NCBI GenBank assembly: GCA_022711355.1
Contig: JAKLFE010000006.1
Coordinates: forward strand, 1-64,000
Origin: Spirochaetota bacterium
GTDB lineage: Bacteria > Spirochaetota > Spirochaetia > Treponematales > Rectinemataceae
DNA length: 64,000 nt
Direction of reading: 5' to 3'
Under the pieces are notes generated by a model, which saw nothing but the letters and a program-made list of their open reading frames with translations, was not told the DNA's origin and did no database searches. Below, one piece after another: positions 30,797-35,118 of this stretch. Position numbers and translations under genes: made by a program. How positions within the stretch are numbered: the stretch's first letter is position 1; the number at the start of each line of letters is the position of its first letter.

Positions 30797-30840
30797 GTAT
30801 CCATAATACTTAAGTCCCCTCCTTGGTCGAAGGAAAGGAT

Positions 30841-31410
30841 ATGAGCGAGAGCTACCGCCTGAACACGGAACTGGCGCAGAAGATCGTCGCGAACATCATG
30901 ACCGCCTCCGGGGCCGGCGCCAACGTCATCGGCACGGACGGGGTGATCATCGCCTCCTACGATCCGACCCGGGTGGGGAGCTACCACGAGGGCGGGCACC
31001 GGATGATCATCCACGACCTGGACGAGCACGCCATCAGCGAGGAGATGGCGGCATCCATGGCCGGGACCAAGGCCGGCTACATCGGCTCGATCAGGCTCGG
31101 CTCCCAGCGCCTCGGCCTCATCGGCATACGGGGCGACCCCGAGAAGGTGAAGCCCCTCCAGAAGATGGCCGAGCTCGCCGCCCAGGAGGCCATCCTCCGG
31201 GACGCGAGCGCCCGGCGGGAGCGGGAGGAGATCCGGGCCATGGAGGAGGAGATCGTCGAGATAGCCGAGAACATGCGCATCCTCGCCATGAACGGCTCCA
31301 TCCAGGCGGCCAAGCTCGGCGAGCGGGGCCAGGCCTTCAAGGTCGTCGTCTCGGAGATGCGCAAGCTCAGCGAGCGGATCCAGCAGATCGTCGGCAGGCG
31401 CGGCGCCTAG
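30841..31410 (+). CDS. Short sugar-diacid-sensor/chemoreceptor-tip fusion protein
   Basis: 189 residues from ATG 30841 (GAAAGGA upstream). Residues 1-~105 match the CdaR-type sugar-diacid recognition domain (LAQKIVANIMTASGAGANVIGTDGVII, with IIHDLDEH and GYIGSIRLGSQRLGLIGIRGDP). The C-terminal ~70 residues are a coiled coil ending in a shortened chemoreceptor hairpin, IAENMRILAMNGSIQAAKLGE then AFKVVVSEMRKLSERI, comparable to QTNLLALNAxIEAARAGE...GFAVVAxEVRxLAE. There are no membrane segments. It may be a cytoplasmic signalling protein that docks to the chemosensory array or mimics a receptor tip. No glycerate or glucarate pathway genes are near. Confidence 0.75.
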   Translation: MSESYRLNTELAQKIVANIMTASGAGANVIGTDGVIIASYDPTRVGSYHEGGHRMIIHDLDEHAISEEMAASMAGTKAGYIGSIRLGSQRLGLIGIRGDPEKVKPLQKMAELAAQEAILRDASARREREEIRAMEEEIVEIAENMRILAMNGSIQAAKLGERGQAFKVVVSEMRKLSERIQQIVGRRGA

Positions 31411-31455: not shown

Positions 31456-31485
31456 TTGAGCCCTCCCCCCCCCCTGGGCTAGACT
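31456..31485 (+). promoter_or_regulatory. Promoter candidate for the trpS leader
   Basis: TTGAGC (31456-31461), 18-bp spacer and TAGACT (31480-31485). The predicted transcription start (about 31492) lies just before the leader ORF ATG at 31496. Confidence 0.45.
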
Positions 31486-31495
31486 GATGGCCGTC

Positions 31496-31603
31496 ATGGA
31501 CGCGCTGGCCCGCCTTCACCTCGGACTCGGCATGCGCGGCGGCCCCCGCGGACGCCGCTGGTCCTGGCGCCGCGCCGTTCCGCCCGCCATCGATTTCGCC
31601 TAA
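31496..31603 (+). CDS. Putative Trp-containing leader peptide upstream of trpS
   Basis: A 35-residue frame (MDALARLHLGLGMRGGPRGR, then RWSWRRAVPPAIDFA) ends in TAA 109 bp before trpS. Trp is rare and needs TGG, yet two TGG codons occur two codons apart (31559-31561 and 31565-31567), flanked by Arg codons. No ribosome site precedes it; initiation would be near-leaderless at ATG 31496, or alternatively at ATG 31487. Downstream, several mutually exclusive hairpins precede trpS. Stalling at Trp codons when charged tRNA-Trp is scarce, raising TrpS synthesis, is a natural model, but expression of the ORF is unproven. Confidence 0.45.
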   Translation: MDALARLHLGLGMRGGPRGRRWSWRRAVPPAIDFA

Positions 31604-31604
31604 C

Positions 31605-31705
31605 GCGAGTCGAGGCGACTGGGGCTCGCGGGGCCCCGAAGGCGGAAACGGGCCGGCACTGCACCGCGCGCCGCCCCGTACGGGCGGCGCAGCCCTCCAT
31701 CGGAG
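31605..31705 (+). promoter_or_regulatory. Hairpins between the leader ORF and trpS (attenuator candidate)
   Basis: Right after the leader stop, AGTCG (31608-31612) pairs with CGACT (31616-31620), competing with GCGAG (31605-31609) pairing to CTCGC (31625-31629). A strong 9-bp stem GCGCCGCCC/GGGCGGCGC (31668-31676 with 31682-31690) follows, and CTCC (31695-31698) can pair with the trpS ribosome-site GGAG (31702-31705). There is no T-run, so translational sequestration or a Rho-dependent mechanism is likelier than intrinsic termination. Confidence 0.4.
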
Positions 31706-31712
31706 AAAGAGC

Positions 31713-32768
31713 ATGGAACGCAAGCGCATACTCACGGGCGACCGCCCCACCGGCAAGCTCCACCTGGGGCACTACGTCGGCTCGCTCAAGAACCGCGTCC
31801 GATTGCAGGACGAGTACGAGTGCTTCTTCATCGTCGCCGACCTCCACATGCTGACGACCAAGCCGGAGAAGGAGCACATCGAGGCCATCGCCGACAACGC
31901 CCGCGCGATCGTCCTCGACTACCTCGCCTGCGGCATCGATCCCGCCAAGAGCGTGATCTACCTCCAGTCCGCCGTGCCCGAGGTCTGCGAGCTCGCCCTC
32001 CTGTTCGGGAACCTCATCACCGTGCCCCGCCTGTCGCGCGTGCCCTCGCTCAAGGAGATGGCCCAGGGCGCCGGCATCGAGGAGATGCCCTTCGGCCTCC
32101 TGGGCTACCCCGTCCTCCAGGCCGCCGACATCCTCCTGCCCCGCTCCCACCTCGTGCCCGTGGGCAAGGACAACGAGGCCCACGTCGAGGTCACCCGCGA
32201 GATCGCGCGCCGCTTCAACCACCTCTACGGCGAGACCTTCCCCATCCCCGAGGTCATGGTGAGCGAGGTGGGCAGCCTCGTCGGCACCGACGGCAACGCC
32301 AAGATGTCCAAGTCCCTGGGCAACGCGATCTACCTCTCCGACGACGAGAAGACCGTCGTCAAGCGGGTCATGGGCATGTACACCGACCCCAAGCGGGTCT
32401 CGGCCGACGTGCCCGGCACCGTCGAGGGCAATCCCGTGTTCCAGTACCACGACGTCTTCAATCCCGACAAGGCCGAGGTCGAGGAGCTCAAGGCCCGCTA
32501 CCGGGCCGGCAAGGTGGGCGACGTCGAGGTCAAGGAGAAGCTCGCGAAGGCCCTCAACGCCTTCCTCGACCCCATCCGCGAGCGCCGCGCGAAGTACGAG
32601 TCCCAGTCGGGCCTGGCCGACGAGGTGGTCTACGACGGGACCATGAGGATGCGCGAGGAGGCCCGCGCGACCCTCTCCGCGGCGACGAAGGCGATGGGCC
32701 TCGCGGCGGTGTGGAACCGGGTGGCCAGGAAGGCCGAAGACGTGAAGAAGCGGCGCGCCAAGGCGTGA
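31713..32768 (+). CDS. trpS: Tryptophanyl-tRNA synthetase
   Basis: 351 residues, the normal length. It charges tRNA-Trp in the cytoplasm. Class I signatures are present: GDRPTGKLHLGHYVGSL contains the HIGH-type motif and NAKMSKSLGN the KMSKS loop; GLLGYPVLQAADILL and VPVGKDNEAHVEVTREIARRF contribute the Trp and ATP pockets. It begins with a GGAG site at 8 bp and is the only gene of its unit apart from the leader ORF. A clear intrinsic terminator follows 73 bp after its stop. Confidence 0.96.
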   Translation: MERKRILTGDRPTGKLHLGHYVGSLKNRVRLQDEYECFFIVADLHMLTTKPEKEHIEAIADNARAIVLDYLACGIDPAKSVIYLQSAVPEVCELALLFGNLITVPRLSRVPSLKEMAQGAGIEEMPFGLLGYPVLQAADILLPRSHLVPVGKDNEAHVEVTREIARRFNHLYGETFPIPEVMVSEVGSLVGTDGNAKMSKSLGNAIYLSDDEKTVVKRVMGMYTDPKRVSADVPGTVEGNPVFQYHDVFNPDKAEVEELKARYRAGKVGDVEVKEKLAKALNAFLDPIRERRAKYESQSGLADEVVYDGTMRMREEARATLSAATKAMGLAAVWNRVARKAEDVKKRRAKA

Positions 32769-32841: not shown

Positions 32842-32878
32842 AAAAGGGGCGCCCTCGAATACTCGGGCGTCCCTTTTT
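32842..32878 (+). terminator. Intrinsic terminator of trpS
   Basis: A 13-bp stem (32842-32854 with 32865-32877, one G-T pair) encloses the 10-nt loop TCGAATACTC and ends in a T-run. The left arm begins with A's, so it could work in both directions. The same 10-nt loop occurs in the terminator at 35204. Confidence 0.85.
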
Positions 32879-32927
32879 CATGCGACACCCGCCGCGCCCC
32901 CGGGCAGGCTCGGAGGGACGCGGTGTC

Positions 32928-32988: not shown

Positions 32989-33091
32989 CATGGCCTTCCC
33001 CTCACGTCGGCGTCCGGCTCGGCAGGGGGCGGCGGTCCAGGCGAGTTATCATCCAATAATAAATAGATATTATTATAACTATAATTAAGTA

Positions 33092-33120
33092 TTGATACTT
33101 TTTACCAGAAAGAGTACTAC
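33092..33120 (+). promoter_or_regulatory. Promoter of the first FMN/FAD reductase
   Basis: TTGATA (33092-33097), 17 bp, TACTAC (33115-33120), within an AT-rich stretch (33050-33120) that stands out in this genome; a TATAAT at 33080 is an alternative. The other flavoprotein gene also has a TTGATA -35 box. Confidence 0.5.
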
Positions 33121-33180: not shown

Positions 33181-35118
33181 ATGAAGAAGTCCCTGCGGAT
33201 CCTGGCCCTCGCCCTGATCGCCGTCCTGGCAGTAGCCGGCTGCGAGCAGATGAAGGCCTCGACCAAGGCGACGCCCGCGGCCCAGCGCGCCGTGAGCCCG
33301 ATGAAGCCCGGCGTCTACACCCAGACGGTCAACGGCATGCACGACGGCCTGACCATCGAGGTGACCCTCTCCGCGACGCGGATCGAGAAGGTGACGGTCA
33401 AGGCCGCCAACGAGACGGCGGGCGTCTCCGACGTCGCCCTGGCCGAGATGCCCCAGCGGATCGTCGCGGCCCAGAGCGTCGCGGTCGACGCCGTCTCCGG
33501 CTCCACGCGCACGAGCGAGGGCATCCTCGAGGCGGTCGGCGCGGCCATCGTCGCCGCCGGCGGCAAGGTCGAGGACTTCCGGGTCGCCCCCGAGGCCCCC
33601 GCCGCCGAGGCCCCCAAGGCCAAGGCCGAGGCGGTCGCCGCCTCCGCGGAGCTGCCCTCGAAGTGGGACCTCTCCTACGACGTCGTCGTCGTGGGCGGCG
33701 GCTTCGCGGGCCTGTCGGCCTCGCACAGCGCCGCGACCCACGGCGCCAAGACCGTCCTCGTCGAGAAGATGCCCTTCGTGGGCGGGAACTCGCAGATCAA
33801 CGGCGGCGTCTACGCGGCCTATACCTCCAAGCTCGCGGCGGGCTTCCAGAAGAAGTTCAACCTCGAGCCGGACACCGCCGAGAAGCACATCGCCGACACC
33901 CTCAAGGGCGGCGACTACATGGGCGATCCCAAGCTCGTGCGCAACCTCGTCTACGGCTCGCCCTTCTACCTCGACCTCCTCCTGGACAACGGCCTCAAGG
34001 TCCGCGAGTCCCTGACCAGGCCGGGCGGGCACTACGGCTACCGCACCTACACCACCCAGAACGGCGTCGGCGCCGACATCGTCCAGGTGCAGAAGAAGAT
34101 GGTCAAGGAAGCCGGCGTCGAGGTGATGACCAGCGCCAAGATGGTGAAGATCTACCGCGAGGGCCGGCTCTCCGGCCGGGTCGTCGGCATCCGCGTCCAG
34201 ACCGCGGGCGGGACCAAGGACATCCAGGCCAAGAAGGGCCTCATCCTCGCCACCGGCGGCTTCTCCGCGAACGTCGAGATGCGCCAGAAGCAGGTGCCGA
34301 CCCTGACCGCCGACCTGCCGACCACCAACCACGTCGGCGCCACCGGCGAGGGCATCTCCCAGGCCCAGGAGATCGGGGCCAACACCATCCAGATGAGCTA
34401 CATCCAGCTCTACCCCTTCGCCGACCCGAACAACGGCGTCCTCGACGCCTTCGCGGTCATCCCCTTCTCCGGCCCGAGCGCGGGCATCGTCTACGTCGAC
34501 GTCAACGGCAAGCGCTACGTCAACGAGGGCGAGCGCCGCGACGTCTGCTCCAAGGCCGCCCAGGACTCCGCGGGCTTCCCGACCTTCTCCATCTTCGGCG
34601 AGGAGATCTACCGCAAGGGCGGCTTCATCACCGAGGGCCAGATGGCCGACGGCATCAAGGCCGACCGCATCTTTAAGGCCGACAGCCTCGAGCAGCTGGC
34701 CGCCGAGATCAACAAGCGCGCCTACAAGGGCGGCAAGATCGCCATGACCGGCGAGGCCCTCGCCGCGACCATCGCGAAGCACAACGAGTACGTCCGCAAC
34801 CTCAAGGACCCGGACTTCGGCAAGCGGATCGACAAGGGCGTCATGATGACCATCGAGAAGGGCCCCTACTACGCGATCCCGCAGTGGCCCTCGGTCCACC
34901 ACACGATGGGCGGCCTCGCGATCGACGAGAAGACCGAGGTCCAGGACGTCTGGGGCAAGGTCATCCCCGGCCTCTACGCCGCGGGCGAGGTGACCGGCGG
35001 GGTGCACGGCACGAACCGCCTGGGCTCGAACGCCATCCCCGACGCGGCCGTCCACGGCTACATCGCCGGGCAGATGTGCTCGACGGGGACCCTCCCGGCC
35101 TTCGTCCAGGGCAAGTAG
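33181..35118 (+). CDS. Periplasmic FMN/FAD fumarate-reductase-type lipoprotein
   Basis: 645 residues. A signal peptide with lipobox (AVAGC) is followed by an FMN_bind domain containing DAVSGSTRTSEGI, whose S-G-S-T matches the D-x-x-[ST]-G-[AS]-T site where FMN is attached to Thr by ApbE. The main part is a flavocytochrome-c-like FAD domain: VVVVGGGFAGLSASHSAA, LILATGGFSANVEM, NEGERRDV with the proton-donating Arg region, VHHTMGGLAID and HGTNRLGSNA, which carry the substrate-binding His and Arg of fumarate and urocanate reductases. It should be a membrane-tethered periplasmic reductase of fumarate or a related alpha,beta-unsaturated acid. It has no haem sites, so electrons must enter through FMN. 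Confidence 0.9.
   Translation: MKKSLRILALALIAVLAVAGCEQMKASTKATPAAQRAVSPMKPGVYTQTVNGMHDGLTIEVTLSATRIEKVTVKAANETAGVSDVALAEMPQRIVAAQSVAVDAVSGSTRTSEGILEAVGAAIVAAGGKVEDFRVAPEAPAAEAPKAKAEAVAASAELPSKWDLSYDVVVVGGGFAGLSASHSAATHGAKTVLVEKMPFVGGNSQINGGVYAAYTSKLAAGFQKKFNLEPDTAEKHIADTLKGGDYMGDPKLVRNLVYGSPFYLDLLLDNGLKVRESLTRPGGHYGYRTYTTQNGVGADIVQVQKKMVKEAGVEVMTSAKMVKIYREGRLSGRVVGIRVQTAGGTKDIQAKKGLILATGGFSANVEMRQKQVPTLTADLPTTNHVGATGEGISQAQEIGANTIQMSYIQLYPFADPNNGVLDAFAVIPFSGPSAGIVYVDVNGKRYVNEGERRDVCSKAAQDSAGFPTFSIFGEEIYRKGGFITEGQMADGIKADRIFKADSLEQLAAEINKRAYKGGKIAMTGEALAATIAKHNEYVRNLKDPDFGKRIDKGVMMTIEKGPYYAIPQWPSVHHTMGGLAIDEKTEVQDVWGKVIPGLYAAGEVTGGVHGTNRLGSNAIPDAAVHGYIAGQMCSTGTLPAFVQGK

Follow-up and report, generated by a model that had tools for sequence, protein, structure and literature searches.

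A tryptophan-codon leader and a conserved three-way RNA junction before trpS in two spirochaete families: a probable ribosome-mediated attenuator

In a bacterium of the Rectinemataceae (Spirochaetota bacterium, assembly GCA_022711355.1), the gene trpS, which encodes tryptophanyl-tRNA synthetase (TrpRS), is preceded by a short open reading frame (ORF) carrying two Trp codons. The Trp codons are directly followed by a three-way RNA junction at 31572-31653, in which a helix formed by two strands, A and D, encloses the hairpins P1 and P2. The locus lies in contig JAKLFE010000006.1, of which positions 1-64,000 on the forward strand (64,000 nucleotides, nt) were analysed and are referred to below as the window. 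Leader and junction together very probably act as a sensor of tRNA-Trp. We put at roughly 60% the probability that the element as a whole is a ribosome-mediated attenuator of trpS, switched on when charged tRNA-Trp is short and with Rho-dependent termination as its proposed output. Comparison among relatives shows the leader, its Trp codons, the junction, the spacing between them and the restriction of the element to trpS, while stalling in the cell, the direction of control and the Rho output are what we infer from this arrangement. All of the evidence is comparative and computed, and several of the genomes are incomplete assemblies. The features of the locus are as follows.

31456-31461, + strand: -35 element TTGAGC, a consensus match only; a TTG with 17-18 nt spacing is present in 16 of 16 members.
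31480-31485, + strand: -10 element TAGACT, a consensus match; the transcript is predicted to start near 31492.
31496-31603, + strand: leader ORF of 35 codons plus stop (ATG at 31496, TAA at 31601-31603), encoding MDALARLHLGLGMRGGPRGRRWSWRRAVPPAIDFA.
31559-31567, + strand: regulatory codons TGG TCC TGG (W1 at 31559-31561, W2 at 31565-31567); both TGG codons are kept in 16 of 16 leaders.
31575-31584, + strand: strand A of the closing helix, from alignment and folding, with two extra pairs contributed by 31572-31573.
31585-31617, + strand: hairpin P1, from folding, with the leader stop codon in its loop.
31620-31638, + strand: hairpin P2, from alignment and folding.
31641-31651, + strand: strand D of the closing helix, from alignment and folding, pairing with A with one A bulged at 31646.
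31654-31701, + strand: linker to the trpS Shine-Dalgarno site, a candidate Rho-loading stretch, in which C exceeds G across the group, weakly in the window.
31668-31690, + strand: 9-base-pair hairpin peculiar to the window and not conserved, from folding.
31702-31705, + strand: Shine-Dalgarno site GGAG of trpS, read in the sequence.
31713-32768, + strand: trpS, tryptophan--tRNA ligase (TIGR00233, score above the curated cut-off).

A short ORF with a Trp-x-Trp motif precedes trpS in 15 spirochaete genomes of 9 genera in 2 families, which together contribute 16 such leaders. Two in-frame Trp codons, one codon apart, are invariant in all of these leaders, and the adjoining codons vary: the middle codon is TCC, TCT, GCA or GCC (the leader L092, for instance, carries W-A-W), and the codon following W2 is CGN, CCT, CTT or a stop. 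The AT-rich leader L119 (genome G052) has three Trp codons, W-A-W-P-W (MYNFLKGSWAWPWAGLCSLR). Translation stops directly past WSWR in L005, L007 and L011 and directly past WSW in L154, and otherwise some codons further on. The original prediction, made from the letters of the window, had read a 35-residue frame with W-S-W between a promoter-like sequence and trpS as the layout of ribosome-stalling control by tRNA-Trp, to be checked by aligning the TGG pair, frame and stems of related trpS upstream regions. Such a comparison strongly supports the leader ORF, the Trp codons, the RNA structure and the trpS target, since TGG codons and frame are conserved and a conserved junction follows them. The flanking Arg codons of that prediction did not survive the comparison, since L119, L087 and L154 have Pro, Leu or a stop in the place after W2.

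The promoter-like sequence is likewise shared, with a TTG -35 element lying 17-18 nt from a TAnnnT -10 element in every member, as judged from consensus matches. In the window the spacer between TTGAGC and TAGACT is 18 nt long; a strict promoter scan gives this pair no score. In 9 of the 16 members, just 6-7 nt separate the -10 element from the first in-frame ATG, where the transcript itself should begin, so that the leader ORF would be leaderless. An earlier in-frame ATG of the window, at 31487, is an unlikely start because it lies just 1 nt past the -10 element.

Taken alone, the entire window leader folds no better than shuffled sequences (z = -1.0); only comparison reveals the element as real. 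Individual minimum-energy folds give the same junction shape in most members, the A:D helix often having a one-base bulge. In an alignment of 15 sequences fitted to the structure, in which covariation is counted over cells of related sequences, 94% of the cells are paired and 11 of the 18 pairs show two-sided changes, with 25 such changes overall. The covariation score is 0.315, as against 0.140 in shuffled alignments (0 of 500 shuffles reached it) and at most 0.09 when the partners are slid. A MAFFT alignment of ten sequences agrees with this picture. The hairpins which the original prediction placed after the frame thus exist, and the conserved ones are those of the junction, while the strong hairpin at 31668-31690 is not conserved. 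No conserved pairing of the Trp codons was found in the free RNA.

A covariance model, R1, built from ten sequences with the window left out, matches the window copy alone in its genome (E 0.011). Strong R1 matches in other genomes all precede trpS (in genome G087 the contig ends before trpS), and weak model matches elsewhere appear to fall within genes or in sequence unrelated to the element. A strictly filtered search of 395 sampled genomes of the class recovered only the already known leaders. No Rfam family matches the leader, the T-box covariance model included, in line with the original prediction, which had seen no T-box.

Strand A begins about 13-16 nt past the first base of W1; counted from the same base, a ribosome holding W1 in its A site occupies some 12-13 nt. 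With the RNA hidden up to W1+12, the predicted probability of D-A pairing is 0.48-1.0 in 13 of 15 members; with the RNA hidden up to W1+18 it falls below 0.1 in ten of the 15. The junction would thus report whether a ribosome waits at W1. Set against attenuators of the trp type, the element has a short ORF separating the gene from its promoter, conserved clustered Trp codons (two or three in each of the 16 leaders) and an alternative pairing whose start lies just beyond the edge of the stalled ribosome, the size of the footprint being taken from general knowledge; a U-tract intrinsic terminator competing with an antiterminator is lacking.

These observations can be combined into a model. Transcription would start a few bases from the leader ATG, so that translation of the leader would begin at or near the 5' end of the transcript. 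Under a shortage of charged tRNA-Trp, the ribosome would wait with W1 in its A site and its leading edge just short of strand A; A could then pair with D, and the junction A-P1-P2-D would form or persist. When tRNA-Trp is plentiful, both Trp codons would be read, the A:D helix would be opened, and the ribosome would end at the stop codon, which lies inside P1 in most members. Full translation of the leader would expose D and the C-rich stretch that follows, on which Rho may load and end transcription before trpS. In the starved state the junction would withhold D, and a shortage of Trp-tRNA would thereby switch trpS on.

The output step is the least secure part of this model. A terminator scan found no intrinsic terminator in the window leader, and inspection by eye found no GC hairpin followed by a U run in the leaders of the other members. 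A bidirectional intrinsic terminator does lie 3' of trpS (32844-32880; GGGGCGCCCTCGAATACTCGGGCGTCCCTTTTT), suggesting that the organism uses U-tract terminators, though the trpS leader is without one. Between roughly strand D and the start of trpS, C is in excess over G; in the linker this holds for 15 of 15 members, clearly so in most relatives. The excess is 0.197, compared with 0.050 upstream of other genes (Mann-Whitney p 2.7e-5, on related rows that are not independent). A rho gene is present in the genome, and with the precedent of mgtL, described below, Rho was taken as the most likely output. We propose only tentatively that transcription ends before trpS by Rho-dependent termination, restrained by the junction in starvation.

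Several observations weigh against the attenuator model. In the window itself, a ribosome at W2 still leaves D-A pairing at a predicted 0.61, against 0.90 at W1, and the C excess of the linker is weak (0.07, with a background mean of 0.05). Predicted pairing in the stalled state is weak in L006 (0.06) and L119 (0.21), and L087 has no stop near W2, its frame continuing for 156 nt from W1. A conserved downstream partner of D is absent: such pairing is strong in L005, L007 and L091, absent in others and in no excess over shuffles. As a terminator is lacking too, the OFF state is not marked by any conserved feature. Finally, leader-less genomes are common within the same two families, which indicates that the control is dispensable.

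Among the alternatives, the leader RNA might mask the trpS Shine-Dalgarno site once the leader has been fully read, a stalled ribosome freeing it. The original prediction had proposed masking of this kind, and in the window a CCTCC just upstream, itself preceded by a strong hairpin, can indeed pair with the GGAG. However, the computed cost of opening the site in the window barely depends on ribosome position (2.3, 2.5, 2.5 and 1.8 kcal/mol for the free RNA and for a ribosome at W1, W2 and the stop codon, respectively), no common direction of change is seen among 15 members, and the adjoining hairpin is not conserved. Such translational attenuation is accordingly unlikely, and the masking claim falls. 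It is also improbable that the stalled ribosome and the junction together shield the mRNA against RNase attack at its 5' end, thereby stabilising trpS mRNA in starvation. A leaderless leader with a compact structure close to the 5' end would suit this function, but shielding alone leaves the narrow spacing between W1 and strand A unexplained.

The peptide itself, rather than the codons, might be what matters: an arrest peptide sensing free tryptophan in the manner of TnaC, instead of a counter of tRNA-Trp, would account for the Trp residues and for the R-x-A-G/V-S found in several peptides. Yet the leaders that end directly after WSWR or WSW, and the different residues found elsewhere, speak against it, and the residues past the Trp codons track the RNA helix and not a peptide motif; we regard this explanation as very unlikely. 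Very unlikely, too, is a junction that serves as a binding site of TrpRS (autoregulation) or of another protein, with the Trp codons incidental. The restriction of a conserved fold to trpS would fit, but neither junction nor loops hold any conserved sequence, no CCA anticodon mimic was seen in the P1 and P2 loops, and the frame in which the Trp codons are retained is the one that the promoter-proximal ATG opens. A chance ORF with hairpins in GC-rich DNA, which the unremarkable fold of the window leader and the frequency of TGGNNNTGG (roughly 0.4 occurrences per kb on each strand) might suggest, is refuted by the comparison across relatives: 15 genomes retain the element, its pairs show compensatory changes, and the model located it blind.

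The leader is unevenly distributed: the trpS tree requires at least 6 changes in its presence. Genomes G006 and G009 have no leader, their -10 element directly preceding trpS. L009, which covers the trpS region of genome G058 that L113 also represents, retains P2 and D but no longer has strand A or the Trp codons, amounting to a natural deletion of the sensor. A tie between the leader and loss of the trp operon was considered and rejected, as trpE and trpC are both missing in 13 of 15 genomes with the leader and in 16 of 21 without it; the window's own genome also lacks both, but its assembly is 79% complete. No Trp-codon leader was found upstream of trpE in G006 and G009. Conserved palindromes, GTTACTacttataGTAAC and GTTACgtcacacaGTAAC, lie just upstream of trpE in these two genomes (L158 and L160) and are possibly a repressor operator. 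Before leuS, three readable upstream regions (L172, L173 and L176) hold no analogous leader; perfect GC-rich hairpins stand shortly before leuS in L172 and L173 (GGCGG...CCGCC; GAAGGGCGCC/GGCGCCCTTC), with no Leu leader ORF. Around the window locus, the gene preceding the leader (30823-31410) encodes a sugar-diacid recognition domain (PF05651) fused to a partial MCP signalling domain (PF00015). Further downstream, a flavocytochrome c-like gene (33181-35118) is preceded by a stretch (33045-33115) that is sharply AT-rich within an otherwise GC-rich genome and contains a match resembling a promoter.

Control of synthetase genes by ribosome-mediated attenuation is of a known kind, whose logic the spirochaete element shares without its terminator. 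In the attenuator of the E. coli trp operon the pairing strand begins just outside a ribosome stalled on the Trp codons, as strand A does here; the 3:4 terminator and its U tract are missing from the spirochaete leader, which has trpS as its only target. The Trp-codon attenuator before trpS2 of S. avermitilis is described as being of the classical antiterminator/terminator type (PMC1262725), and an attenuator of an auxiliary TrpRS gene of Streptomyces is attributed to Vecchione and Sello 2010 where that work is cited in PMC4787780. These resemble the present element in the Trp-codon leader ORF before a TrpRS gene, but have antiterminator and terminator hairpins where the spirochaetes have a three-way junction and no terminator. 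The leader peptides of mycobacterial cys operons (PMC1262725, PMC4633059) likewise have a small ORF upstream, with codons specific to the amino acid concerned, and lack an intrinsic terminator, and Rho has been suggested; they differ in using Cys codons and in having no reported conserved terminator-like hairpin, whereas the spirochaetes have a conserved junction. Closest in the proposed logic, exposure by full translation, is the mgtL leader of Salmonella mgtA, as summarised in PMC5021804; there, Pro codons and Mg2+ transport are involved, and Rho is only a hypothesis for the spirochaete trpS leader.

A narrow search of the literature returned no report of a codon-counting attenuator in spirochaetes. 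The element may represent a hitherto undescribed class of Trp attenuator, leaderless, lacking a terminator and restricted to trpS in two families of spirochaetes, in which the junction at the leading edge of the ribosome is itself the output, by hiding a Rho-loading strand or otherwise. If the attenuator model is true, spirochaetes possess a codon-counting attenuator, together with a conserved RNA family that has no Rfam match. The sensing half of classical attenuation would have been kept with the terminator half missing, and gene control by ribosome position, with neither a terminator nor a masked start site, thereby becomes testable. The model also predicts which genomes would raise TrpRS under a shortage of tRNA-Trp, several of which yielded no trp operon.
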